IMG/VR virus record: IMGVR_UViG_3300037089_000087
Coordinates: 1-59,649 of that record
Length of the DNA stretch: 59,649 bases
Origin: a virus
Strand: one strand, 5' to 3'
Shown: one piece after another, positions 26,733 to 59,649 of the stretch
Numbering within the stretch: the first letter of the stretch is position 1
Layout: each line of letters opens with the position of its first letter
Made by a program: the position numbers and the translations under genes
Notes under the pieces: generated by a model
The model's database searches: none
Seen by the model: the letters and a program-made list of their open reading frames with translations, nothing else
What the model was told of the DNA's origin: nothing

Positions 26733-29700
26733 CTAAGTTGTTTCCCCTAAACTCTCCATCATTTTGTTATAGAGTGCCAGAATTCTTTTGCGAGCATCGG
26801 GGGTCTTGTTCTTCAGAGCCGTCCGCATCTTTTTATTGAGAAGGGGTTTGAGTTCCTTTCTCTCGACTTCGTTACCAAGTTCATAGACGGTGATAGCCTC
26901 TTCCGGTTCTAGCTGTTTAAATTCCCGTACCAGCGGAGGAACATTCTTGCTTTTGATGATGTCGCGGGCTTCTTTCGATGTGATTTTTCCATCCAAAACA
27001 GCCTGATGAATTTCCTCAGTATCTCCGGTCTGCTGTAGTCTTCCGCGTAGTTGCCGTTTGAGGTTGTAAATATCAGCTTGCGCCTGCGTCTTCTCTGACT
27101 TCGGTGTTCTCGCCTGTAAGATATCCCTCATGGTATTCTGAGCTGGAGTATTCAGATACTCTGCGCTTGCAGGCATAACGCCTATTTCCGGTGCTAATGC
27201 TTTCAATGGGTTTTTCGCTATTGTGGATGCCATACCACCAAGAGTGTCATCCTCACCAGCAGCAACCGCCGATTTTTCAAGTCCACGCATCCAGAACGGC
27301 TCAAATTGCTTGACGGTAAACATTCCCAATTCTCCACCTTGGGCTATTATACTGTCTCCTTTATGGCGTATCTCTACACCATAATAGTCGGTATTGCGAA
27401 TCATATCAGAAACAACGCCTATCATTGGATGAGCCTTTGCAAGCAAGGTCTTAGTAGGATGTCTCCAGTAGGCGAAGAGGTCTTTTGCGTAAGTTGGTAG
27501 CAAGTACCTTATAGGCCGTCCCTGCTCATCATTCTCACCAGTCCTGAATGCCCACCAATCAGTACTCGTTGGGCTGGTATCAAGGTCTCCGGTAAAGGCA
27601 TAGGTTAATGCGCCGTTTATAGCTGCCGCCGTGATAAGAAGCGACATGGTATAAGCTGCCCTATCTGGTAGCTTATCTGGCATTTTCCCTGTTTTCGTCC
27701 ACTCTGCGAGGAACTTGGAAAAATCTTTTAATCCACCCGCGATTTGAGCTATAGTGCCTCCTGACCAACCCGGCGCGCGGACTGTAGCCTGAACTATGTT
27801 TTTGTTCTGGTTATCAAGGAATATACGGTCATATCTGACCATACCCATACTCGCATCAACGAAGTTCCATGCAGCACGTAATTCTGGTACTAGCTCTTGC
27901 AAAGTTTTGTTTGGGTTCATTTCTATGAGCCGTTGGACTTTATAACCAAACACGCCAGCTTTCTGTTTCGGCACCAGCCATTCCATGATAGGCTTGGCAG
28001 ACAGCTCTATAAAAGCGATAGGTGAGCGCATCGCAGCTCGCAATTTATGTTTTCCATACCAATCCTGAAGCATCTTTCCTGTTTGCTCGGTTTTCAAACC
28101 CTGTTCCAATCTCCAACCGCCTCCAGCAAGTACCGCTGCCTTGGCAATAATTGCAACTGGGTTTGTAAGCTGGCTGACAGGCACGTTTGTAGGAACATTA
28201 ACGGTGGGGTTCTGCCATTCCTTCAGTATGCGTGAGCCGTCCATTGGAGTCTTGATAATAGCCATCGGAACATGCGATAACGATGTTCCTAAATCCCCTA
28301 TCGTGCGATTGCCTTTAATAACTCCATACAAATCCTGTATAACGTGAGAGTTGGCAATAACTGTTACCTCTCCCGATGTAAACCCTGCGTGGAAGAACGA
28401 CCCTACGCTTAACTGCGACATATTCAAAACATTTGCAGCCGACATGGTCCATTTATATGCATCTCCGAAGAGTTTATTATTATAGAGGCTCGATGACATA
28501 TAATTGTTCAGTATTTCCGCAACTGGTTTCTTGGCTATCATGTGACCGAGAATTGGGAACCCACCAAGATACTTCTCGCCCGTGAGTGCTTTGAGCGAAA
28601 GCCCCTGACGAATATCAGCAAGCTCGGAAATCTCAGGAGTGCTTTTGATAAATGCGTCAAAGTCTTTGAATACAGTAGGAGCAACCTCTTCAAACCTGTC
28701 CTTGGCATGGATGTAGGCTTCGAGTAAATGAGCCATTTTCTCTTCTTTTTTACGAACCTGTTTTTTATATGCCGGAGATGCTTCACTACCTTCCCATGAA
28801 AGGTCTGCTAATGTTCTCAACTCGTTCTGAATCGTTGCTCGTTTTTCCGCTGATGCGGTTTTGGTAACTTCTCCACGTTTCCCTATGCCTTCAGCACCAG
28901 CAACAAGTTTATCCCATAAATCGTATTTCGTGTCGAGCTTATGACCTATTTCATGAGCCATAACTGAAAGTTCTGTGGCAAACTGGGTTACTATCTGACC
29001 GCCTTCTTCACGGCTTGCCCAACCAAGCTTTCCACGGCCTGCATTCCACTTACGCTCATGCTGAATGCCTAATGCCGCAACAACATTTGACAGACCCTCG
29101 AAAACATTACGGTCAACATACTCGACAGTTTTCATTGTCGGCGGTCCGTAAACTATTCCAACCCTGCCGTTCAGTTCTGCCCAATCTTCCGGCATCTCTT
29201 TTCCGGAACCAAGGAATTTCACATCCCCGTTCGGTCTTGCGGTATTGTTAATATAGTCATGTCCAACAATGGCGGTATTCATTTCAGCAAGTTTTAACGC
29301 CACATGGTCCATAGGATTCGGCGATACCGACCTCAAACCAAATTCTCTTGCAGTCATGACATCATCAAATGTTTTATGTTTTTTATATGACTCCTTACCA
29401 TAAAGGTTGTGCTTGGTAAGATATTGATAATGGTCAACATCTGACCCTTTCTTGTCTTTCAAGAGTTCATCTACACGGTTCTTGATTACGGTCTTCTCTT
29501 CATCTTCCCAATCACCAAGAGGTTTAGGTTCTCCTGGATGCGCTTCGAGATATTCCCCCATAGCCTGATTGAACGCCCTGACGGAATCTTTACTATGCAT
29601 GCCGGGGAAGTAAAATTGTCGCAATGTTTCAAGTGGAACACCAGCCCTTTCAAGTGCGTCAAGTGCTTCTTGGAGCGCATCCTTCGTAACTTTTTCAGCC

Positions 29701-32700
29701 TTTCTAATCATGTTTGCCTGAAGCCCAGTAGTTCCGTATCGTTCGTTGATTTCCGCATTAGTCAGTTGGGCAAGACGGCCTTGCGACACATCCGACTCAA
29801 ACAGAATACCGGGGTTGTTCAGTCCTTTGCTCTCATCTCCAACGCCAATCTTACTAAAGAACCCATATGGATGCTTTGCAGAATCTTCAAATTTCCCAAG
29901 CTCGCCATGTATCTGTGCATAGGCTACGTCTTCTCGTCTATTACGTTCTCCAATTCTAATGCTAATCTCACGAGCAGCTTTCGTATGCTCTGGACTAATG
30001 GTGGTAGGTGCGATAAGAGTTTTGACGAATTGCGATACCCCCTTGCCAATCTTTTTAGCAATCTCAAAACCCGGCATATAAAGATGCTCTGTTTTTGCCA
30101 GAGCATCCTTGGCATGGTCAACTATATCCTTAGCTGGTATGTCTGGTCGTTTGTCTGGGTCAAATTCATGGCCGAAAAGTGAGTAGAACACTCTAGCATC
30201 GTGAGCATTAACCTTCTCTTCTTCCGGCGTGAAATCTGTTCTCTCGTTAGGGTTGTTTATATATAAAGCGTTGTAAATATCTTCGGAACCTCGAATTCCC
30301 CATTTCTTTTCTGCTTCATCACGACTGAAAAAATCTCCATTTCTGTCGATAAATCCAGAGATATATTTCTGACCTTTCGGTGCGTTTCTCCTTAAATCTT
30401 CATGTGTATCACCGAATTTGCTAGACTGAATGTCTCCTGTGTCTGTGTTTTTTATGGCTGGTTGCAATCCTTCTATGTCTCGCTGACGGCTCAGGATAGA
30501 CTTCCATTGTCTCTCGGTAGCTAAAGAAAGTTTCGGTTCTTCGAGCTTTGGTTTGGAAAATCTCTCACCTTCTCCGATATCGGATGTTTTGCTTTCTCCT
30601 GTTTTTGCCTTGAGTTTGGCAAGTTGATTGGAATATCTCGTAAAATCTTTCTTTTCTCCTACCGTTAATGGGATACCAGCATCCATTTTTGCCTGTATCT
30701 CGGCAATCATTTTCTTCCTATATTCTGGATAGTCTGCTTCGGTGGCATAGAGCGGTTCTTCTAGCTTTGGTTCTGTGATTTCTTTTGGTCTTGATTCGAG
30801 ATAGGTTTTTATTAAGTCAGATGAGGATTTTATGAGCCGTTCAGCCTTATCTGGTTCATAGTAATTACTTGCAACTACCTTTTCGCTGATAAAACCCATT
30901 TTGCGGAAAGCATCTACAATCCAGTCAACGAATTTCCGGAACGATGATGGACTCTGACGTTGCAGATTCTCGTAGAAACGAGGGTCACGAATGGCATCTC
31001 CTAATACATATCCTCCGTACTCTTCCCATAATTCGTCTGGGGTTTGTTCTTTCAAGCCAATTTTTATATTTTCTTTGTTTCTCCAATCGGTAAATCTTAC
31101 AAAAGTCTTTTCCGGTATGGCAGTACGAATATCACGCTCGAATGTTTCGCCCGCTGTTTTTAAAATATCAGAACCTACCCTACCTTCATTTTTGATAGTA
31201 TGATAGAGTTCATGTCCAAATGTTTTCATGATGCTCTGTGCGTCAGAGAGATGCGATGCAAGGTAAATACGGCTTGCATCAATAGCCACACCGTCAAATT
31301 TTGAGTTTGCCTGAACCCAAACAATTCTCTTAGAAAATGCTTTAGATAGAATTTCTGCGGCGGCAGTTTGTGTTGGGGTTATTTCTCTTGCGGCTTCGAT
31401 ATCTGGATTTCCTGATTTTTCTCTGAGGTCTGCGATGTCTTGGCTAATCTTTCCTTCATTTGCACGTATGGAGTCAGGCATTTTATTCCCTTGTCCCATG
31501 ACTCTTCTGGGGTCTCCGATGGCTCCTGAGACATCTTTTTCAGTCTGTCCTGTATCCGGTAGAACGGGCAAGGTCTTATCAAGTCCTTCTCCCACCCCTT
31601 TCTCCTCTCTGCCCACTCCGACTCTCTCTTCTCCTGTTCTGCCTCCTTCATCGCCTGCTCGTACCGCTTGTCCTCTTCCTCCTGTTCCTTTTGTTCCTGT
31701 TTCAACCTGCTCTGCACCAGAGTCCACCCGCATCGGTAGTCCTTCTCCCATCCCTTGATTCTCTCCTCCCACGCCTTCTCTTCCTGTGCTAATCGTTCTT
31801 CCTCTTTTTGCTCTTTGGTCTTGAACATCTCCCGCAACCACTTTCCGAGAGGCAGATGGAACTTGCGTCTCTGGCGAGGCATTTCCTTCTCCACGAGTGC
31901 CTTCAGTCCCGATAGACCTTCCTGCTGTTCCTGTGTCAACATTGTATGACCCCTTTCTTAAAATATCTAACACTTCAGACTTTGGCATGACCGGACGGCT
32001 CATACCATTCAGCATCTCTACCGCCTGTTGTGACCCGTCTGCTGATATAATACCACGTTTCTCCATATCTTGCAACTTATTTATTGCAGATGCGATACGA
32101 ATATTTTTCTCATACGTATCATCGAGAATTTTGATAGCACGGTCTATATTTGGCTTATTTTCTAGAGAAAACAATGCTTTAGTGTCAGCACCTTTCTTTG
32201 CCGCAAAGATTTCTCCTGCCTTGCCTTCAAGATAGCCCGGAGACATCTCGATAATAGCACCATCTTTGATGTTGCCCTCTTCTATTTCCGCATGCAGGGC
32301 ATTCGAGATGGATGAAGGATTAATCTTATATTGACGCTTGGTTTTGGATTCTTTCGATGCTTCTGGAGACACGTTGTAGACAAGCCACGACCCCGCTTTA
32401 GGGTCGTCTTTAGATATGAGCGCAACGGTGAACCGTGGATTCTTGGCAAATGCGGGGTCGGCTTTGGCAATATCTCGGATTACACGGCGACCTTCTTGAG
32501 CCATTTCTCCAGCTATAAGACCTTCACGGCCAACCTTTTCACCCGGAGCACCAAGATAGGTAAGACCTTCCTGCTTTGCCAGTTCCTCTGTTTTTGGTGT
32601 CGTATCGATAGGCAGGAAATCATGGTAAGTGGTCGGTGCAAATTCCCCACCTTCTTGCTTACGCACCTTTTGCGATTCTACTCGTATGCCATTTTTAGTC

Positions 32701-35700
32701 TTCTTGACTGTGCCTTTTAATACTGCTTCCCATGATTTATCATATTGTTTCTGATTTTCTTCGCTTTTTGGCTTCGATGATTCATAGGTGAACGGGTCTC
32801 TATGACCATCGGGAACATATAACCACTTTCCAGCCTCAAAGTCTTCTTTCAGTTTTTGCGGTGTCTCTGGTATGGTAAATTCTTGAGGCTTCTTTGCCAT
32901 GACCCGTACATCGCTCGGTTTCTCGGTTGCGGATGGAGTTGGAGGGTACTTACGGGTTTTCTCTTCCTCTTTGGCGGCATCACGAGCTTTTTCTTTTTCT
33001 GATTCGAGTTTAGATTTTTTCTTGTCCTCAGCAATGAGCCGTTCACGCTCTACATCCACATTTTTCTGAAGGTCGACCATAGCCGTAACCTTTTCCGGAG
33101 ACGTTTTCATTGCTCCTACGTCATTCAGAGGCTCGATGAACTTTTTATGTAACGCATCGTAAGTCTCGGTACTCTTATCGATGTGAGAAGACAATAAATC
33201 CGTAATGTGGTCTTGATGCCGATTAATGAGTTGGTTCAAGACAAGCTTTTTGAGAGAATTCGCATCGTCAGACTTTGGAGATGTCGTAATCATTGACGTT
33301 ACGCTGTCTTCTGTTTGACTGGAAACGTCATCGTCAATCTTGCCATAAGACTTTATTTCATCTTTTACCATGTTCCTGATGGCATCATAGGTCTTTTTCG
33401 ATACGCCTTGATTATCAAGAATTTCCTGTGCGGCCATACGGTTCGGTTCGTCACCCTGCTCAACAACTTCATGGAGATACGTGCTCCGTATCTCTTTCCT
33501 GAGAGGTTCTGCTTCTTGGCTCAAAACCCTGACCTTATCGTAGTTTTCTGATAACTGCTTGGACATTTCATCGTTCAGTTTTGAGCCGTATTTTGAACGC
33601 TTCTGCTTTTTCTTCAGAGCTTCAGCTTGTTTATTAAGACCTTTTATTGACTCATCGATTTCCTCAATGCGTTCTTTTGCCTTGGTAATGTCAACAGGCT
33701 TTGCGGTGGGCTTCTCAACTGTTGCCGACCATTTTTCTAATTCTTCCTTAGGTACCCAAACTGTTTTTGGCAACTTGATTCCAGTTCGATTCTCAAATTC
33801 GGCTCGTAGAATCTTGTTACCCTTATGTAAAATCTGAAACATTTTATCGGAATTTCCAGACTCGAACGCCTCATTAAACAGATTCTTTGAGGCTTGCGGT
33901 AGAGAATAAAACGCACCAGTAGTCGGTTTAGATGGAGCCGTTGGTTCTTCTGTTTTTGGTTTTGGTTCTGATTTAGGTTCTCCTGTCGGTTTTTCCGAAG
34001 CCCATGATTCGAGAGCGGACTTTCTCTTAAATTTCATATTCGGAATTTCTTTACCTGTCTGATGTTCAAATTCCTTCACGAGAGCATAGAATCTCCAACC
34101 AGCAGACACTTCGCTATCGTTCAATAAATCCAACATTCCTTGAGCGTCACGGGATTCTAATAGCTCATTGAACCTGTCTTTCGTTCTTTGAGGTAATGCA
34201 TCGAAGGCTTGGGTGGGCTCCTTGACTTGAGCCGTTAGTGCCTTGGTTTCTTCTGCTGGGTTCTCCTTTGGTTTCGGGAAACTCATGTTGGCTTTATCAG
34301 CGGCTTGCTTTGCTGATTCATACGTTCTCTCTATCCCATGCGTGGAAATTGTATACTTGTCATACAAAACCCACTTGTCCTTGTTTTTAGTGGAACGCAT
34401 AGGAACAATATTATCAAGGAATCCTTCGGGTGGAGTGTAAACAGGTTCATCTGTTATTTGAGCCGTCCGTTCCTTGGATTCTGCTGGTTCCGGTTCTTTC
34501 GCAAGGTCAGGGTAATCTTTCATGATTTCTGGGTCAACAACCTTACCTTCCGAGACAGCCTTCATTACAGCGTCTTTATGGGTTTGTCCAAACGGTCTAG
34601 GAACAAAAAGATTCTTCTCAAATCCAGACTTATACTCTGCATTCTGGAAAGTAGGTTCAATGCCAAATCGTTTAGCTGTATGGTTTCCAACCCAAGCCAG
34701 AATTGTTTTATCTCCCCGTTGACGGGCTAGATGAAGTCTGTGTTGACCATCCAAGACAATGGTTTCTGGTGCAACTCCATACATTCGTTTATGGCGACCC
34801 ACTTCACGGTTATTCGCATCTACCACGATTGGTCCGGTAGCCTTGGGTGGCTCTTCTCGGTATTTTGTTTCTTGACCTGCCACACCGAACCAGTCTATTT
34901 TATCAATAGGAACTTCAGCAAGCGTATAGGTATCGCTTGGCATCCAATGGTCAGCGTAATCTTTTGGACTCTTATTTATTTTGGCATCGGGGTCAATATA
35001 CGGAGAATCTTTTGATATTTCATGGATATGAGTAGCAAGCTGTTCTTGGGTAACTGTTTGCCCTATCTTTGGATTTTTGGGCATCTTCATCCATTCTTCC
35101 CGTGTCATCTGATAAGGTTCTTTCTGTTCTTGAGCCGTCTGTTCCTCTTTGGCTTGAGCCGTCTCCGGCTCTGTTGCGGTTTCAACACGTGGTTGACCCG
35201 CTGGTTCCTCGGTTTTTACCTTTGCGTTATTGATAATACCCATGATATCGCTATTTGCGGGTTTCATGCCAAGCTTGTCATTCTCAATGGCTTCTTGGAC
35301 TTCAGATAACATATCTGGATTGAGCCGTTCGTCCCCTACTAAATAACCAGCTTTGCGGGCATAGTCCTCTGCTTCATCAAGGGTCATTGGCTTGGATGGT
35401 GCCTCTTCTTTAGGTGTAGGAGCTTCTGGTGCGACTTCGGCTTTTGGTTCAACAGGTGCAGACGGCTCACTAACTGGAGGAGTTACTTCTTCCTTCTTGA
35501 CTTGAGCCGTTGGTTCCTCTTTTTTCGGTTCTAGTAAACTCTTTGCCAATTCCGGTGTCATGAGTTCCGGATGTGATTTGGCAATCTTTGTGAAGAATGC
35601 CTTACCCTTTGGTGTCGTATCAGTCCATCCACGGATTATGCCGTGGTCTGCTACTGCTTTCTTGACCAGTTCCGTTGCGTATCCCTTTCGTTCTTCGGAT

Positions 35701-38700
35701 TCAAGGGTCTCAACTTTACGGACGGAAATAGTTCCATCTTCATGCTTTGTATAGTGAAGGAATGATACATCCTCACCATTTGCATTACGGGCGACAATCT
35801 GGGTATCATCTGGACCCATTACGGATGTCCTGCGCCCACCACGGAAGGAATTGTTTTCCACTATGTTTACCTTTGAAGATTCTTTTTGTGGTGGAACTTC
35901 TGCCGTTTTTTCAGGAACGAACGGCTCATCTGGGTATAGAATTTTACCAGCCTTTATCTCTTCTCTTTTCTGTTTATACGTTAATGTTCTACCATCCGCA
36001 TCGACCATAATTGATGGAGTTGATACCAGAACGCCATCTTTCATTAACCCCTGCGTTGTTATCTTGCTTATTATTTCAGAACCAATTATATCAGAATCGG
36101 TTAACTGGAACTCTGCCTTGACAGTCAGTCCATAGTCAAAGGCATCTCCTTCTTTCACGACATCTTGTATTTCAAGCCCCTTGCTTTTCAAATAATCCTT
36201 CGCTTCCTGAATTAACTTCTTGACTGCCTCGGTTTCCAGTTCTGGTTTTTTAGATATTCTTCTCTCTAAATTGGTAATTCTTGTTGCAACCTCTCCACTT
36301 GATGCTTGGTGTAACGCATCTTGTAACGCTTCAATGCCTATTTGCATTCCTTGAGGAACGGCCTTGACCCGTTTTTCTTTATCTGATACTTTAGGAGCAG
36401 ACGGCTCAGGTGAAGGCTCTGGAGCAACAGGAACTTCAGGCGCAACGGGAGCCTCGACAGGCGGTTCTGCTACGGGTTGAGCCGTTGGCTCCTGTTCGGC
36501 AGGAACCTCTGGACGGCTCATTTCATCCTGAAGTGTCTGTTTTACAATATCTTCCGGAGTTTGTGGCTTCACAGATGGCGGTAGCGTCTCTCCAGAGGGC
36601 TTTTGAGGCATTTCTGGAGCCGTAGGTGTCGTAGGAGCCGGAGTTGGCATGGTAAGGTCTGTAGGTGCGCCCCCAGAGCCGTCTGTGGGTGGTAAGACAT
36701 TCGCCTCAGTCGGCATCTTGGTGAGGTCAACAGCAGGTCCGCCAGGCACTATGGCAGGCAAAGATATGATTGGTCGTGGACTTTCCAGACCGCCAGCCTT
36801 TGCAAGGTCGAGCTTTTGCATAACTTCAGCATGCCTATCGGCGGTAGCTTGGTCGTTTGCCTTTTTGAAGTCCTGAGCGGTCATTGCGGGGATATCTTCA
36901 GGTTTTGCAGGAGATTCGCTGACGGCTTTCCCGAAATCCTCTAAATCATTCTTATATTCCTCGCGCTTTCCTTGAACCAACTCGTCTTCAGGAGACCCTA
37001 ACGGCTCATGGAAGAACTGGCTATCCAATGCCCTCTGGTCTTGAGTTAATGGTAGCGTCTGTTCTGGAGGTGTAGGAGCAGACGGCTCACCAGTAGGCTC
37101 AGGTTGGGCTGTTGGTTCCCTCAGACTTTCTGCTGATAAGTTAATTGGCTTGCCTTCATTGATAGCAGCGATACTATTCCATCTGAAGTTTTCTGCCATC
37201 TTCGGGTCAATCTTCTTCAGTTGTAAGGCAACGGCATTCACTGCGGCCATGCGCTGTTTAGCGTAATTTTCAGCATCTTTCCCTTTCAGGTTAGGTCGTG
37301 GGTCGCTAAAAGGTTTTGTACGAGCGGCTAAACCGAAAATAGATGAAATGATAGTAAGTCCAACGCTTGATGGTATAGTGCTTTTAAGAGCTTCCCATAC
37401 TGTAGGTTCTTCCGGCCCAGTAACCCCAAACGCTCTCTCCACGGCAACTGGAATGGTTCCGTAAGCAGCTAGTGCTGCCATGGTAGTGCCAAGACCTACG
37501 CCAAAACTCTTCGCAAAACCTTTAGCCATCTCAGAGCCAGCGGCATTCGTAAAGACTTCTTCAGCGGTGAACGCACCTTTCCCTAGAGCTTTTCTGAACA
37601 ATCCGCTTGCTATACCCTGACCTTTACTCAGATATTTTCCACCGAAAGCATATACCGCACCAGTAATTCCTCCAGCTATCATTGCGTTCTGTTTTGCTTC
37701 TTCAGGAGATTTTCCTGATGCTAATTGCGACTTGTAAACTTTGTCATGAGTCTCTTTGTAACCACTCAATGCAAAAGCAGTCATACCAATCGCTTGGCCA
37801 ATAGGTCCTAAAGCGAATGGAGCTAATTGGGGAAGAATACCTGCTCCACCAGCCAACGAAGCGGAAATCGGGTGCTTGGATACATCTGAGTATTCAGTTG
37901 GCTGTAATTCTGGTAATTTATTAATCCCTTCAATCGCCTCTTGTGTTCCGCGAATGTTTTTAGCAAACTTCTCCATAAAGCTTTCTTCTGGTTTTTCACC
38001 AACAGACGTCTCATCGGAAAACGGACTCTTACCTTCCTTGACTCTCCCTTCAGCATGGGCAATGGCCTTATCCATAATTGATTGACCCATCGGAGTTCTG
38101 AAAAGGTTTTTATCGCCATCTTTTGAGTTAAGGATGTAATCAACCTGTTCTTTGCTAAGACCAGGAACAAGGGTTGGAATCTCCATTTCCTTATCGTTAA
38201 TATTTGTTCCAACAGTGAACTCGGTCATCACACCTTTTCCATCGGGACGGTTTAAAACTCCGAGCCATCCATTTCCTTTTTTTGAGCCGTCTTGACGTGT
38301 TCCCCAGTCTTTACGTTCAGGAATTTCTGGACGGCTCGTATCAGGAAGCGTCTGTTGATGTTTCTCTGGTACAAAAGCATCAGCAACAGCTTCAGGTATA
38401 GAATAAAGCATATGAGATAAGCCCTGTTGTCCTTTTACTAATTCCCTCCCAACTTCCTTCGTTCCTTCCCATGCCTGCTTGAAAATACCCGGTTTTTCTG
38501 GAGGCAATGTTTTTTGACTTTTTTGTGATGGAAGTGTAGACCCACTCTGGGATGAAGGTGTTGGTGGTTTATCATAAGATTCGGTAAGTGGTTTATAGTC
38601 GTACTGGGGTGTTGAGGGAGATGAAGACGCAAGTCCACCAGCATTGCCGGAATCAGGCAACGTGGAAGTTGATTTTGGTATTGTTACTCCGGGTATAGCC

Positions 38701-38774
38701 TCTTTTGTAGGTGGCTTATCGTAAGATTCACCAAGAGGCTTATATTCAAACTGATTGTCAGTAGGTTCTGCCAT
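26733..38774 (-). CDS. giant polyvalent virion/ejection protein (4013 aa)
   Basis: One uninterrupted 12-kb ORF. The N-terminus has two YKPL(G/T)ESYDKPPT repeats, and hydrophobic segments follow at about 310-480. Long Pro/Glu/Ala linkers carry repeated EPTAQ-like units. Other parts are a GNAT-like stretch (EERKGYATELVKKAVADHG, near 1025), a ParB-like motif (IVLDGQHRLHLARQRG, near 1340), two tandem LPQ...LE(S/K)WA(S/T) repeats (about 1520-1690) and metallopeptidase motifs FGHELYHTIKNE (near 2521) and MAHEIGHKLD (near 3272). This mosaic matches large polyvalent proteins that phages package and inject to protect their DNA. The linkers hold many copies of TGAGCCGT. Roles of single domains are inferred. 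Confidence 0.75.
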   Translation of the reverse strand: MAEPTDNQFEYKPLGESYDKPPTKEAIPGVTIPKSTSTLPDSGNAGGLASSSPSTPQYDYKPLTESYDKPPTPSSQSGSTLPSQKSQKTLPPEKPGIFKQAWEGTKEVGRELVKGQQGLSHMLYSIPEAVADAFVPEKHQQTLPDTSRPEIPERKDWGTRQDGSKKGNGWLGVLNRPDGKGVMTEFTVGTNINDKEMEIPTLVPGLSKEQVDYILNSKDGDKNLFRTPMGQSIMDKAIAHAEGRVKEGKSPFSDETSVGEKPEESFMEKFAKNIRGTQEAIEGINKLPELQPTEYSDVSKHPISASLAGGAGILPQLAPFALGPIGQAIGMTAFALSGYKETHDKVYKSQLASGKSPEEAKQNAMIAGGITGAVYAFGGKYLSKGQGIASGLFRKALGKGAFTAEEVFTNAAGSEMAKGFAKSFGVGLGTTMAALAAYGTIPVAVERAFGVTGPEEPTVWEALKSTIPSSVGLTIISSIFGLAARTKPFSDPRPNLKGKDAENYAKQRMAAVNAVALQLKKIDPKMAENFRWNSIAAINEGKPINLSAESLREPTAQPEPTGEPSAPTPPEQTLPLTQDQRALDSQFFHEPLGSPEDELVQGKREEYKNDLEDFGKAVSESPAKPEDIPAMTAQDFKKANDQATADRHAEVMQKLDLAKAGGLESPRPIISLPAIVPGGPAVDLTKMPTEANVLPPTDGSGGAPTDLTMPTPAPTTPTAPEMPQKPSGETLPPSVKPQTPEDIVKQTLQDEMSRPEVPAEQEPTAQPVAEPPVEAPVAPEVPVAPEPSPEPSAPKVSDKEKRVKAVPQGMQIGIEALQDALHQASSGEVATRITNLERRISKKPELETEAVKKLIQEAKDYLKSKGLEIQDVVKEGDAFDYGLTVKAEFQLTDSDIIGSEIISKITTQGLMKDGVLVSTPSIMVDADGRTLTYKQKREEIKAGKILYPDEPFVPEKTAEVPPQKESSKVNIVENNSFRGGRRTSVMGPDDTQIVARNANGEDVSFLHYTKHEDGTISVRKVETLESEERKGYATELVKKAVADHGIIRGWTDTTPKGKAFFTKIAKSHPELMTPELAKSLLEPKKEEPTAQVKKEEVTPPVSEPSAPVEPKAEVAPEAPTPKEEAPSKPMTLDEAEDYARKAGYLVGDERLNPDMLSEVQEAIENDKLGMKPANSDIMGIINNAKVKTEEPAGQPRVETATEPETAQAKEEQTAQEQKEPYQMTREEWMKMPKNPKIGQTVTQEQLATHIHEISKDSPYIDPDAKINKSPKDYADHWMPSDTYTLAEVPIDKIDWFGVAGQETKYREEPPKATGPIVVDANNREVGRHKRMYGVAPETIVLDGQHRLHLARQRGDKTILAWVGNHTAKRFGIEPTFQNAEYKSGFEKNLFVPRPFGQTHKDAVMKAVSEGKVVDPEIMKDYPDLAKEPEPAESKERTAQITDEPVYTPPEGFLDNIVPMRSTKNKDKWVLYDKYTISTHGIERTYESAKQAADKANMSFPKPKENPAEETKALTAQVKEPTQAFDALPQRTKDRFNELLESRDAQGMLDLLNDSEVSAGWRFYALVKEFEHQTGKEIPNMKFKRKSALESWASEKPTGEPKSEPKPKTEEPTAPSKPTTGAFYSLPQASKNLFNEAFESGNSDKMFQILHKGNKILRAEFENRTGIKLPKTVWVPKEELEKWSATVEKPTAKPVDITKAKERIEEIDESIKGLNKQAEALKKKQKRSKYGSKLNDEMSKQLSENYDKVRVLSQEAEPLRKEIRSTYLHEVVEQGDEPNRMAAQEILDNQGVSKKTYDAIRNMVKDEIKSYGKIDDDVSSQTEDSVTSMITTSPKSDDANSLKKLVLNQLINRHQDHITDLLSSHIDKSTETYDALHKKFIEPLNDVGAMKTSPEKVTAMVDLQKNVDVERERLIAEDKKKSKLESEKEKARDAAKEEEKTRKYPPTPSATEKPSDVRVMAKKPQEFTIPETPQKLKEDFEAGKWLYVPDGHRDPFTYESSKPKSEENQKQYDKSWEAVLKGTVKKTKNGIRVESQKVRKQEGGEFAPTTYHDFLPIDTTPKTEELAKQEGLTYLGAPGEKVGREGLIAGEMAQEGRRVIRDIAKADPAFAKNPRFTVALISKDDPKAGSWLVYNVSPEASKESKTKRQYKINPSSISNALHAEIEEGNIKDGAIIEMSPGYLEGKAGEIFAAKKGADTKALFSLENKPNIDRAIKILDDTYEKNIRIASAINKLQDMEKRGIISADGSQQAVEMLNGMSRPVMPKSEVLDILRKGSYNVDTGTAGRSIGTEGTRGEGNASPETQVPSASRKVVAGDVQDQRAKRGRTISTGREGVGGENQGMGEGLPMRVDSGAEQVETGTKGTGGRGQAVRAGDEGGRTGEERVGVGREEKGVGEGLDKTLPVLPDTGQTEKDVSGAIGDPRRVMGQGNKMPDSIRANEGKISQDIADLREKSGNPDIEAAREITPTQTAAAEILSKAFSKRIVWVQANSKFDGVAIDASRIYLASHLSDAQSIMKTFGHELYHTIKNEGRVGSDILKTAGETFERDIRTAIPEKTFVRFTDWRNKENIKIGLKEQTPDELWEEYGGYVLGDAIRDPRFYENLQRQSPSSFRKFVDWIVDAFRKMGFISEKVVASNYYEPDKAERLIKSSSDLIKTYLESRPKEITEPKLEEPLYATEADYPEYRKKMIAEIQAKMDAGIPLTVGEKKDFTRYSNQLAKLKAKTGESKTSDIGEGERFSKPKLEEPKLSLATERQWKSILSRQRDIEGLQPAIKNTDTGDIQSSKFGDTHEDLRRNAPKGQKYISGFIDRNGDFFSRDEAEKKWGIRGSEDIYNALYINNPNERTDFTPEEEKVNAHDARVFYSLFGHEFDPDKRPDIPAKDIVDHAKDALAKTEHLYMPGFEIAKKIGKGVSQFVKTLIAPTTISPEHTKAAREISIRIGERNRREDVAYAQIHGELGKFEDSAKHPYGFFSKIGVGDESKGLNNPGILFESDVSQGRLAQLTNAEINERYGTTGLQANMIRKAEKVTKDALQEALDALERAGVPLETLRQFYFPGMHSKDSVRAFNQAMGEYLEAHPGEPKPLGDWEDEEKTVIKNRVDELLKDKKGSDVDHYQYLTKHNLYGKESYKKHKTFDDVMTAREFGLRSVSPNPMDHVALKLAEMNTAIVGHDYINNTARPNGDVKFLGSGKEMPEDWAELNGRVGIVYGPPTMKTVEYVDRNVFEGLSNVVAALGIQHERKWNAGRGKLGWASREEGGQIVTQFATELSVMAHEIGHKLDTKYDLWDKLVAGAEGIGKRGEVTKTASAEKRATIQNELRTLADLSWEGSEASPAYKKQVRKKEEKMAHLLEAYIHAKDRFEEVAPTVFKDFDAFIKSTPEISELADIRQGLSLKALTGEKYLGGFPILGHMIAKKPVAEILNNYMSSSLYNNKLFGDAYKWTMSAANVLNMSQLSVGSFFHAGFTSGEVTVIANSHVIQDLYGVIKGNRTIGDLGTSLSHVPMAIIKTPMDGSRILKEWQNPTVNVPTNVPVSQLTNPVAIIAKAAVLAGGGWRLEQGLKTEQTGKMLQDWYGKHKLRAAMRSPIAFIELSAKPIMEWLVPKQKAGVFGYKVQRLIEMNPNKTLQELVPELRAAWNFVDASMGMVRYDRIFLDNQNKNIVQATVRAPGWSGGTIAQIAGGLKDFSKFLAEWTKTGKMPDKLPDRAAYTMSLLITAAAINGALTYAFTGDLDTSPTSTDWWAFRTGENDEQGRPIRYLLPTYAKDLFAYWRHPTKTLLAKAHPMIGVVSDMIRNTDYYGVEIRHKGDSIIAQGGELGMFTVKQFEPFWMRGLEKSAVAAGEDDTLGGMASTIAKNPLKALAPEIGVMPASAEYLNTPAQNTMRDILQARTPKSEKTQAQADIYNLKRQLRGRLQQTGDTEEIHQAVLDGKITSKEARDIIKSKNVPPLVREFKQLEPEEAITVYELGNEVERKELKPLLNKKMRTALKNKTPDARKRILALYNKMMESLGETT

Positions 38775-54601: not shown

Positions 54602-56822
54602 TTACATCCGGGCATAGAGCACACCAACAGCTTCCGGCTTCACGACCTTCCAGTCGTAAACCTGTAGACCCTTCATGCCTTGCCCGAAGGTCTTCTCGAA
54701 CTTGTCATGGTATTCCATTTCCGTCAACTGCGCGGCGAAGGTTATACCAGTCTTGTGTCCGAACGTGATGTTGTAGCAATACTTCCCTGTGTCGAGCACT
54801 GGTGTATAGAGGTTGGTAACAAACAGGTCGAAATCATGGAGCGTCTTGACGTACCCGCCGTTCAGCATGGGCGACTTGTCCATACCAGTTACGGAGACAT
54901 CCTTCAGCTCTGAAATCGCCAAGAGGTACTTCATCCATGTCGGTATGGTCATCCAGCGACCCATCCGAGGCCAATTCTGCTCTTCAGCGATGTCGGCACA
55001 GGCTGCGATAAGCTCTGTAACATTCGCCTTATTGATGACAACCGGAGAAGCTGTCGCGCCGAGATTGAACGCTGCGGTTCTCTTACCAGCGGTTGCACCT
55101 TGGTTGACTGACGAAGCATGGAGGTATACATCAGCCCAGAACTTCGTGTCGATGGTCTTTCTCATTTGCTCGGCACCGTCAGCCGCATATTCGTCCATGG
55201 TTTTCTTGTCGGCTAACTGAGCGTAGGTCACCTTGTCCATGCGTACAGCATAGTAGCTGGCACGGTCAATCTTGAGGTCAACACGCCCTTTCTGCATCAA
55301 CTGCCAGTTGATTTCAGAGTTTACCGTGTAGTCCGAGATTTGGACATCCGGCAGGGTGTTGATAACAACGGTGTCGCCCTTCTGCTTGATTTTCAGTATG
55401 TTATCGTTAGGCTCTTTATCCTAACTTCTCATGCTTTCGTATGAGTCCTGACTATATCTTGTTTTTTCTCTTGCAAATCGAACCAAAAGGTGATATAATG
55501 TGTCCATGGCTAATAAAAAGTTTTTTATCTCAAAAGAGCAATTGGAGTCTGATTACTCCGAAACTCCATCTATGCTCAAGCTGTCTAAAAAATACGGAGT
55601 AAGTAAAAAACTTGTTCTTAACTACATGAACCGTTATGGCATAGCCAGAAAACAACCCGTTGATATTCCACTTGACGAGTTGATAATCATGGCTGAGTTG
55701 AAGTTAAGCGTAGAAGATATTTCCAAAATTTTTGGTGTTAAAAAGCGTAGAGTGCTTTATGTTGCTCAAAAAAACCACTTGAAGCTTTTTGACCCCTATC
55801 ATTCTGGGATTGGTAAAACCGAATCTGGATATCTCCTAGTGCTTCAACCCGAACATCCTGAAGCCGATAGTAGGGGATATGTTAGAATCCATAGAATCGT
55901 TATGGAAAAACATATCGGTAGACGGCTCACATCTCAGGAAGTTGTTCACCACATCAACGGAATTAAGTCTGACAATAGAATAGAAAACCTTGCTTTAATG
56001 TCCGTTGAAGACCACGTTAGGCTTCACCACAGTAAACAAGGTGAAGATAAATGCAAGAATTAAAACCGCCCCGTTCGTGAGAATTTTGCCATATCTTGTG
56101 GATGTAGGCTACTTTTCTTAGTCGATGAACCTGCAACCTCTTTCGAGGCTGATTGGCTGCTGATTGTCCATTGTATCATCTCAATTCTTTTTAGCATTCG
56201 CATTTGTTGTTGCCAACTGTGCTGTAGCGTATTGAGCTTTGGGAGTTTCCAGCAATTAAAGGCGTTTAAAGAGAGCAAAATCACTTGTGATTAACCCTCG
56301 TACAGGGTTTTGTTATCGCTAAGGCTCTTTATCCTTGGCTTCTTACGGTTTCTTTTCCCGTAAGCTCAGACTATATCATCTCACATATTTGTGAGCCGGA
56401 CGCTCGTGTTCGGATTATTGGTTGGATGTCCTCACCGATTAGTCGTTGAACCCGCTCAGGTACTTCTTGAATTATCCTTCCCTGAGATTGGCTGCTGATA
56501 GGCATTTCAGCTTCCCAGCAATTCATCCGGTATTTATACTCGGACTACGATTTTAGGTCAAATCCGAGTTACTACAAAACGGAGCAGCGGACGCATCATA
56601 AAATTTCTCAACGACCTTATCGGCATATAGGAACGGAATTTCTCCGGAGCCTGTATCCGTGGTCAGGTCAGGTGAACCTGGGGCTGCTGGTACGGCACCC
56701 TTCTGGTTGCTCAGAATGGCGATGACCGGAAGCATCCAGCCAGCCAAAAGACATGCTGAAAGCATGACCCACAGGCCGATGAAACCCTTAATTCTTGCGA
56801 AGAAATCGAAAATACTTTTCAT
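54602..56822 (-). CDS. major capsid protein, split by two group I introns (3 exons)
   Basis: Proposed join on the minus strand: 56822-56576, 56316-56293 and 55404-54602, total 1074 nt = 357 residues, in frame. Exon 1 encodes FLYADKVVEKFYDASAAPF, exon 2 only (Y)NKTLYEG, and exon 3 KIKQKGDTVVINTLPDVQIS and VTYAQLADKKTMDEYAADGA. This resembles coat proteins of podovirus-type phages, with the usual YEG...GDxVxI region. It follows the scaffold gene with a GCAGGAG site. The first 40 residues contain an unusual hydrophobic segment (FIGLWVMLSACLLAGWMLP). Splice points are deduced from group I motifs and reading frame. Confidence 0.7.
55471..55499 (+). promoter_or_regulatory. sigma70-like promoter for the intron HNH gene
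   Basis: TTGCAA (55471-55476), a 17-nt spacer and a consensus TATAAT (55494-55499) face right. The ATG follows after 6 nt, so the message is predicted to be leaderless. Transcription from here is antisense to the capsid pre-mRNA. Confidence 0.7.
55506..56063 (+). CDS. HNH homing endonuclease, antisense within intron 2
   Basis: ATG 55506 lies 6 nt behind the -10 box; a GTG two codons upstream is also possible. The 185-residue protein has two helix-turn-helix-like N-terminal parts (MLKLSKKYGVSKKLVLNYMN, LSVEDISKIFGVKKRRVLYV) and an HNH_3 domain (SRGYVRIHRIVMEKHIGRRL, EVVHHINGIKSDNRIENLAL, DHVRLHHSK). It should cut intronless capsid alleles and spread intron 2. An intron ORF on the strand opposite to the intron is rare and prevents the capsid message from also encoding it. 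Confidence 0.85.
   Translation: MANKKFFISKEQLESDYSETPSMLKLSKKYGVSKKLVLNYMNRYGIARKQPVDIPLDELIIMAELKLSVEDISKIFGVKKRRVLYVAQKNHLKLFDPYHSGIGKTESGYLLVLQPEHPEADSRGYVRIHRIVMEKHIGRRLTSQEVVHHINGIKSDNRIENLALMSVEDHVRLHHSKQGEDKCKN
56317..56575 (-). other. group I intron 1 in the capsid gene (259 nt, no ORF)
   Basis: Core elements on the minus strand are CCTATCAGCAGCCAATC (Q region), GGTTCAACGACTAATC (R, 56437-56452) and GATATAGTC (S, 56369-56377). TTACGG/CCGTAA (P9) follows, and GGATAAAGAGCCTTAGCG at the 3' end. This tail is almost the same as in intron 2, so the introns are relatives. Removal joins CCG TTT T to AT AAC in frame. It is ORF-less and compact. Confidence 0.7.
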
Positions 56823-58291: not shown

Positions 58292-58347
58292 GCTAAATCG
58301 ACATAATAATGAATTATTTTTATGAGCTGTATTTTCCTTGCTACGGC

Positions 58348-58373
58348 AAATCTCTTACCCTCTGGGAGAAGTT
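58348..58373. repeat. direct repeat copy A (26 nt), copy of the upstream gene's tail
   Basis: This 26-nt block is identical to 58955-58980 and in both places encodes NFSQRVRDL with a following P and stop. Copy A lies just past the HNH gene. The spacing of copies is 607 nt, so the HNH unit is bracketed by direct repeats. Confidence 0.75.
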
Positions 58374-58407
58374 TATAGTGATTTTTTATGAGACGTTTAT
58401 TAATGCT

Positions 58408-58902
58408 CTATGAGTCGGGAAAGTTTAAGAATGCGAATTCACCAAAAAGCTCACGGGCTTTGGCATCGTAAGCACGGGCGGCATCAGTTTCGTCTTTATA
58501 ATACCCTATGTAAATTGACTTGTAATTTACAACAATTCTAGCAGACCATGCATTGCGATTCCTAAGAAAACATATACCCTTGTAACGAGATGTATTGTGC
58601 TCTGTCTTGTGAAATTTCGAGTTATGGCTATTCTGTTGATTTGTACATCTTCTTAAATTACTTTTTTGATTGTCAAGGCCATTTCTATTTCTATGGTCTA
58701 CTCGCTCTCCATCTTGAAGGTTCATGATAAACCGATGCATAAGTGCCGTCTTGAAAACACCATCAATCTTCATGCTTGACCTAGCATATAGAGTATGGTC
58801 TGTTTTCTTATTATGGGCATACCACCTATATTGAGATACCCTCTCATAGTCTTCGTCATCTATAAGTGCTATTTCACCATGTAAAAGTTTCACCTCTCGC
58901 AT
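58408..58902 (-). CDS. AP2/HNH homing endonuclease between direct repeats
   Basis: ATG 58902 is chosen because it lies 7 nt behind a perfect TTGACA-N17-TAATAT promoter; a TTG at 58938 overlaps the -35 box. The protein begins MREVKLLHGEIALIDDEDYE, has an HNH-type core (ALMHRFIMNLQDGERVDHRN, NGLDNQKSNLRRCTNQQNSH) and an AP2 domain (SRYKGICFLRNRNAWSARIV, IYIGYYKDETDAARAYDAKA). It sits directly behind the gene at 58948, between 26-nt direct repeats of that gene's end. A mobile homing unit is the natural explanation. Confidence 0.85.
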   Translation of the reverse strand: MREVKLLHGEIALIDDEDYERVSQYRWYAHNKKTDHTLYARSSMKIDGVFKTALMHRFIMNLQDGERVDHRNRNGLDNQKSNLRRCTNQQNSHNSKFHKTEHNTSRYKGICFLRNRNAWSARIVVNYKSIYIGYYKDETDAARAYDAKARELFGEFAFLNFPDS

Positions 58903-58909
58903 GAGATAG

Positions 58910-58938
58910 ATATTAAACCCATTTAACTGCCATGTCAA
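58910..58938 (-). promoter_or_regulatory. consensus sigma70 promoter of the HNH gene
   Basis: TTGACA (58933-58938), 17-nt spacer, TAATAT (58910-58915), then CTATCTC and the ATG at 58902. No ribosome site is present, so a leaderless message is predicted. Confidence 0.7.
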
Positions 58939-58947
58939 ATGAAATCG

Positions 58948-59649
58948 TTATGGTAAATCTCTTACCCTCTGGGAGAAGTTAATAACAAATTCGAGTGCGG
59001 TCTGTGGGTTGACAGTCCCCAGTGCGTCATCGAAGGCACACAACTCACCATAATATAACCCCTCAACTGAAGTTTGAGCGATTGTCGGGGTATATGTAAC
59101 CTCTGTTGAAGTTACATTGTTGCACACGGCATCTATTATTGCCGCTGAATCAGGGTCGGTTTTATTTCTTTTAATACAGAGCCATACATACTTACTCGAA
59201 ATATCCCAGCTTGACGGCAGATAGAAATTAAGAGGCTTGGTATCACCAGAGACAAAATCTACCGGAGAACCCTCTGAAATGGAAATATTCTGTACTGATA
59301 TGAATGGGAACATGGTATTCGAGCCTCCAAGTGTTTGAATAGACTGAACAATTTCCTCTACTGGAATGTCCAAAATTACAAAGCTGTTTTGGAAAACGTA
59401 GCATTCGCCAGTTCCTATGTTGACTCCTGATTGCGGGTCGAAGATAGGGTATGAATATTCCCCGTCATTCAGCGTCAACGCCGACATGTCGTAAGCGTAT
59501 CGGCCAGTAATGATAGGGTCTTCTATCATGACTGGATATGAGGCCGGAGAAGCTTCAAAAATCCCACTCGCATTCAAAATCAGGTTGTCAAGAGAACGCC
59601 TGAATTTCAAGATAGGATGAAGTCCTGTTACTGACCAATCGAGAATGAT
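58948..59649 (-). CDS. virion-region protein, 5' end outside the window
   Basis: The frame is open to the right edge; inside it a TTG at 59610 is not a convincing start, so the gene is taken as partial. The visible 233 residues include KFRRSLDNLILNASG, GVNIGTGECYVFQNSFVILD and SSWDISSKYVWLCIKRNKTD, a beta-rich pattern, and end NFSQRVRDLP. It lies upstream of the scaffold gene. No family is recognised; it may be a structural or baseplate-type protein. Its last codons are duplicated behind the HNH gene. Confidence 0.55.
   Translation of the reverse strand: MILDWSVTGLHPILKFRRSLDNLILNASGIFEASPASYPVMIEDPIITGRYAYDMSALTLNDGEYSYPIFDPQSGVNIGTGECYVFQNSFVILDIPVEEIVQSIQTLGGSNTMFPFISVQNISISEGSPVDFVSGDTKPLNFYLPSSWDISSKYVWLCIKRNKTDPDSAAIIDAVCNNVTSTEVTYTPTIAQTSVEGLYYGELCAFDDALGTVNPQTALEFVINFSQRVRDLP
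58955..58980. repeat. direct repeat copy B (26 nt) within the gene end
   Basis: Original copy of the 26-nt block repeated at 58348-58373. It is the last coding segment of the gene at 58948 and is directly followed by its stop and the HNH promoter. Confidence 0.75.

Follow-up and report, generated by a model that had tools for sequence, protein, structure and literature searches.

The major capsid gene of the window (by which we mean the whole stretch of DNA analysed, a viral IMG/VR record of 59,649 nt) lies on the minus strand at positions 56822-54602, and its reading frame is broken twice by group I introns. Comparison with an intron-free relative, together with the guide sequences of the introns themselves, indicates that the gene is very probably intact, being composed of exons of 261, 9 and 792 nt separated by two group I introns that belong to distinct families.

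Exon map of the major capsid gene

Exon 1 (56562..56822, minus strand; 261 nt) comprises codons 1-87 and ends in AACTCGGAT^, where the caret marks a splice site or, in guide sequences, the corresponding break. Exon 2 (56294..56302, minus strand) is TACGAGGGT, a stretch of 9 nt made up of three whole codons, Tyr88-Glu89-Gly90, and exon 3 (54602..55393, minus strand; 792 nt) contains codons 91-353 and the stop codon. The joined exons (261 + 9 + 792 = 1062 nt) encode a product of 353 aa, and they are colinear, codon for codon, with the capsid coding sequence of L001, an uninterrupted relative in which this sequence is also 1062 nt long; 340 of the 353 residues match (96% amino acid identity). Around the motif, L001 reads TTTTGTTCCAACTCGGATTACGAGGGGAAAATCAAGCAG, the counterpart of exon 2 being TACGAGGGG. 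Past the point at which a first-pass annotation of this DNA had ended exon 1, the window reads TTTTGTAGTAACTCGGAT^TTGACC, resumes at CCCTG^TACGAGGGT^TAATC, and resumes again at ATACTG^AAAATCAAGCAG. That annotation had proposed a capsid frame broken twice, which the colinearity with L001 bears out. Further, tblastn matches of three family members (L214, L215 and L218) stop exactly at the exon 1 border, 56562, and those of almost all relatives start at the exon 3 border, 55393. With these borders, each intron has U before its 5' site and G at its 3' end.

Regarding the identity of the product, a match to the capsid profile phrog_267 was obtained (E 4.8e-29, residues 50-355, scored with the earlier 357-aa join), and no Pfam match to the capsid protein was found in a profile search. 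The Tyr-Glu-Gly tripeptide encoded by exon 2 is part of a capsid motif, NxDYEGxI, in which D87 and G90 are invariant among the eight capsid proteins of alignment A1, and the YEG motif was also read in 79 uninterrupted capsid genes.

Two group I introns and their guide sequences

Intron 1 (56303..56561, minus strand) is an element of 259 nt, TTGACC...ACCCTG, without an endonuclease gene. It matches the RF00028 model with 58.0 bits (cut-off 50) at 56587-56342, model positions 1-253, with a full core, and displays a P1 of 8 bp with the U.G pair, a P10 of 5 bp, and G at the intron end. Its internal guide sequence (56538..56550, minus strand), UCGUA^GUCCGAGU, pairs with ACUCGGAU^UACGA, thus forming 13 consecutive pairs across its own ligated junction, a score reached by none of 20,000 shuffles. 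When alternative T^...G^ sites were scanned, one 3' site for intron 1 located inside intron 2 paired higher (8+8, with a 2-nt gap); this candidate was rejected, as its use would restore neither the frame nor the protein.

Intron 2 (55394..56293, minus strand) extends over 900 nt, TAATCAC...ACATACTG, and has an HNH gene in its P8. Its match to RF00028 (56303-55428) scores 35.6 bits with an E value of 7e-7, which as it stands is below the cut-off of 50; the intron has an insert of ~590 nt in P8 and a long P5, and among the ten homologous introns that share its site, six reach 53-68 bits, above the Rfam cut-off. A P1 of 6 bp with the U.G pair, a P10 of 7 bp and G at the intron end are present, and the internal guide sequence (56271..56283, minus strand), UGAUUUU^GCUCUC, pairs with GAGGGU^AAAAUCA, giving 13 pairs across its own ligated junction, again with 0 of 20,000 shuffles reaching this score. 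These covariance-model matches agree with the first-pass annotation in assigning both breaks to group I introns; beyond the two capsid ones, no further group I introns were found in the 59.6-kb record.

The two introns share 55% core identity and fall into separate, well-supported clades. In the tree of intron cores, intron 1 groups with the first intron of L037 (IMGVR_UViG_3300050026_000598) with support of 100/99, and intron 2 belongs to a clade with L295, L294 and L134 (95/96). By identity, the closest core relatives are likewise intron 1 of L037 for intron 1 (66% core identity; in a blastn alignment of 225 nt, 71.6%) and the intron of L295 for intron 2 (71%). An origin by duplication of one intron was rejected on the basis of this combination of core identity and tree topology. 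As for the relatives of intron 1 recognized by their P9 pattern, most were found in other genes or at other sites.

The micro-exon, splicing order and alternative readings

The bases of exon 2 are needed by both introns: bases 1-5 by P10 of intron 1 and bases 4-9 by P1 of intron 2, bases 4-5 being shared. In addition, in-silico folding pairs the end of intron 1 with exon 2 in a hairpin, AACCCU/AGGGUU (-8.1 kcal/mol alone), the formation of which competes with that of P1 in intron 2 (-8.6, inner stem included), so that splicing could be slow or ordered. Taken together, the shared bases and the modelled hairpin suggest some ordering of the two splicing reactions. A stronger proposal, which could be added to the exon map given above, is an ordered switch in which the hairpin would keep the 5' splice site of intron 2 hidden as long as intron 1 is present, timing capsid expression; a predicted hairpin energy similar to that of the P1 helix in intron 2 and the presence of the hairpin in a 90-nt fold speak for such a switch, but we consider it unlikely, given that a 6-bp hairpin can arise by chance and that no conserved counterpart of it was demonstrated at other loci. 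In-frame stops are located two codons past exon 1 (SNSDLT-stop) and directly past exon 2 (YEG-stop); such stops, which many bacterial group I introns contain, have been seen as letting the intron RNA fold and splice (PMC3984707).

Judging from the sequence, both introns are probably removed from the capsid transcript. Relative to L001, the capsid gene displays a dN of 0.022 and a dS of 0.51 (dN/dS about 0.04), consistent with purifying selection, and no second capsid copy was found in the window; since the gene is under purifying selection and constitutes the only capsid copy there, it is very probably expressed and its splicing most likely works. A non-functional allele with introns that have lost the ability to splice, or an assembly artefact, could be invoked on account of the highly unusual structure of the sole capsid copy and of the score of intron 2 under the Rfam cut-off, yet either is very improbable in view of the low dN/dS, of the intact P1/P10 pairings and splice-site bases, and of the identical arrangement in L002, a second IMG/VR contig in which 8787 bp, both introns among them, are the same as in the window, although this contig may come from the same phage population and is not independent.

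Skipping of the middle exon had also been raised in the first-pass annotation, which was right in that skipping keeps the frame. If exon 2 were normally skipped, the 5' site of intron 1 would be joined to the 3' site of intron 2, with all of the intervening RNA released in one piece, yielding a 350-aa protein without Tyr-Glu-Gly, and exon skipping is reported for group I introns in terL of SIOphi and orf142 of Twort (PMC11878797). In the window, however, neither guide pairs with the exon that skipping would need: between IGS1 and exon 3, P10 would have 0 pairs, and between IGS2 and exon 1, P1 would have just 1. This cross-guide pairing disfavours skipping as the main path. With the YEG motif conserved, its glycine invariant in A1, and the motif present in the 79 uninterrupted genes, the regular skipping of exon 2 is highly improbable.

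The map originally proposed, with a 24-nt exon 2 (56316-56293), the peptide YNKTLYEGYN and introns duplicated from one another, had an open frame of 358 codons including the stop and a GGATAAAGAGCC...GATAAC block common to both introns in its favour, but it can hardly be maintained: its joins (56576/56316 and 56293/55404) give a 357-aa protein with four additional residues and an altered motif when set against L001 and the family as a whole, its guide pairing amounts to 6+1 and 6+2 bp only, and two cores that are 55% identical and belong to different clades are not the near-identical tandem pair that it attributed to duplication. Its 3' ends, set at CG^ATAAC, were misplaced owing to the common block, an internal element of both introns that comes before their true 3' ends; family introns carry GGATAAAGA(G/A)CC near their end, several of them with GATAAC, all upstream of the true 3' end. 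What stands from that map is a tiny in-frame exon between two group I introns, with a length of 9 nt (56302-56294) instead of 24, a coding sequence of 354 codons with the stop by the L001-guided map, and CSNSDYEGKIKQ as the ligated-junction peptide predicted from the joined exons.

A family of introns at the YEG site

Ten further viral contigs (L134-L137, L037, L299, L295, L294, L297 and L302; L089 corresponds to L299, and L112 to L295) contain introns of the family of intron 2 at the same site, where related capsid genes encode the (D)YEG motif. As in the window, these introns carry a related HNH gene in P8; the HNH proteins of the ten contigs, all located within a capsid-family intron, display 40-52% identity to that of the window. 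Guides, reading GCUCUC or GCCCUC, put each family intron after GAGGGT, except in L299, with the guide GCCCUG after CAGGGT; by the guide scan, the 5' site alone is firm in L137 and L302. Unlike the window, all but L037 have a single intron, and most have the HNH gene in the sense orientation. Rfam gave exactly one group I match per locus at ten YEG-site loci, one of which, L301, is cut at its 5' end.

Of 11 interrupted capsid genes, 10 have the hexamer GAGGGT before the site, as against 9 of 79 uninterrupted ones (p 1.6e-7). In L001, the triplet preceding the intron 2 site is GGG rather than GGT, so that the nearest intron-free relative represents an imperfect target. Among genome contigs, one clear case was identified, L393, a contig from a Clostridia MAG with an HNH gene beside the same capsid residue. 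Other group I introns are located near the same motif in related capsid genes (L389, 13284-13352; L381, 743-814; L382, 818-889), and their presence suggests that this stretch is a general insertion hot spot.

Orientation and possible inversion of the HNH gene

The HNH homing endonuclease gene (55506..56063, plus strand; 185 aa) lies inside P8 on the strand opposite to both intron 2 and the capsid gene, a feature missed in the first-pass annotation. Its product matches PF13392 (HNH_3; E 5e-14, 52.1 bits, cut-off 24.8) and phrog_7545 (E 8e-28), and residues H148, H149, N157, N161, H170 and H174 are invariant in alignment A2. A promoter-like site (55471..55499, plus strand), TTGCAA-17-TATAAT with a TG extension, located 6 nt before the ATG and recognized by consensus match only, may be used by this gene; at the same position, L294, in which the HNH gene is likewise antisense, has an extended -10 promoter-like sequence, TTGACA...TGATACAAT. 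On the plus strand at 56293-56309 of the window, a hairpin followed by a T-rich tail, resembling a terminator, is formed by exon 2 and the end of intron 1; it lies downstream of the antisense HNH gene and could end the HNH transcript or be a product of chance.

Three loci, namely the window, L294 and L295, have an HNH gene antisense to the capsid gene; the remaining family loci have it in sense. In the tree of intron cores, L294 (antisense) and L134 (sense) are sisters at 96/94; as this sisterhood lies within the 95/96 clade, at least two orientation changes are needed, and the HNH protein tree gave no resolution as to the number of antisense origins. The arms of the P8 stem in the window (55461..55475 and 56052..56066) constitute an inverted repeat of 15 nt, 80% complementary, which brackets the HNH gene; in L295, the corresponding repeats bracketing the gene are 12 and 11 nt long and perfect. 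Given this position, an inversion between the arms would keep P8 intact, and that the gene was turned in this manner is our guess from repeats of 11-15 nt. Compared with shuffles, P8 pairing energy is better in some introns only (z -2.6 in L295, -0.3 in the window).

Two other features of the window were recorded. A free-standing HNH-AP2 endonuclease gene (58408-58938, minus strand) is accompanied by 36-nt direct repeats (58342-58377 and 58949-58984, 92% identical), and L001 has only a short gap of about 240 nt at this place; together, the short gap and the flanking repeats make the gene look like a recent insertion with target duplication. An open reading frame of 4013 aa (26733-38774, minus strand) had no Pfam match in a profile search.

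Possible joint mobility of the two introns

The arrangement of the window has a counterpart in L037, which has two tandem introns around the same motif, the first being the closest relative of intron 1 of the window; in both loci, intron 1 is located just upstream of the YEG-site intron. L037 differs in the length of its in-frame exon 2 (15 or 18 nt), in the sense orientation of its HNH gene, and in the 3' splice site of its intron 1, which is ambiguous, with no G at an in-frame junction.

Under the mechanism that we propose, intron 2 would be the mobile intron, with an HNH endonuclease targeting the DNA of the capsid (D)YEG motif, where it is expected to cut the predicted intron-free target GATTACGAGGGTAAAATC; its gene, in the P8 loop, would have come to lie opposite to the intron strand by inversion and would be served by its own promoter. 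Intron 1, 9 bp upstream, would be copied along whenever intron 2 homes, by co-conversion during repair. Because intron 1 lies just 9 bp from the endonuclease target, we tentatively regard it as a hitchhiker of intron 2, a suggestion drawn from two loci, the window and L037. More speculative, and rather doubtful at present, is a fuller model in which the (D)YEG codons constitute a standing homing target, the two-intron cassette travels as a unit, the HNH gene flips by recombination of the P8 arms, and the passenger intron, 9 bp off, both gains free mobility and splits the target.

Tandem group I introns also occur in capsid-like genes of other types in L074, L041 and L100, and multi-intron capsid genes are therefore not unique, the middle exon of L074 being one that guide pairing could not fix. 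More generally, two to four closely spaced group I introns were observed in the viral contigs L074, L041, L100, L121, L125 and L092.

Comparison with known systems and implications

Short spacers between group I introns are known from rDNA. No description of a phage gene in which group I introns enclose an exon of 9 nt was found in a literature search of incomplete coverage. Each of the following has precedent by itself: introns in tandem in phages, exons of small size, exon skipping, and endonuclease genes in antisense orientation. Mycobacteriophage LittleE has a probable group I intron in its major capsid gene, the splicing of which was proven by RT-PCR, and an endonuclease is encoded within this intron on the bottom strand, antisense as in the window; however, LittleE has one intron and no micro-exon, and its endonuclease is related to LAGLIDADG (I-CreI) enzymes, whereas that of the window is of the HNH_3 type (PMC3706429). 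Several group I introns per gene are described for the ribonucleotide reductase of phiNIT1 and terL of SIOphi, both Bastillevirinae, and for Twort orf142, including a small exon between two introns and exon skipping (PMC11878797; Landthaler and Shub 1999 cited there); these are not capsid genes, the exon of the window is 9 nt, and its guides disfavour skipping. Nuclear rDNA group I introns at L2066 likewise have endonuclease genes of both orientations, sense and antisense, at one site; they differ in residing in eukaryotic rRNA genes and in having His-Cys endonuclease genes that carry spliceosomal introns (PMC9548176).

For annotation, this capsid gene serves as a warning, as a 9-nt exon is undetectable without an intron-free relative or guide sequences. 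The host gene of these introns encodes the capsid, which is usually highly expressed, and 9 nt lying between two independent ribozymes, with bases shared by P10 of one and P1 of the other, pose a demanding test of folding and turn-taking. With one exact site, two HNH orientations and an occasional passenger intron, the set of YEG-site capsid introns allows the study of how HNH genes invert, and also of how introns without endonuclease genes persist.
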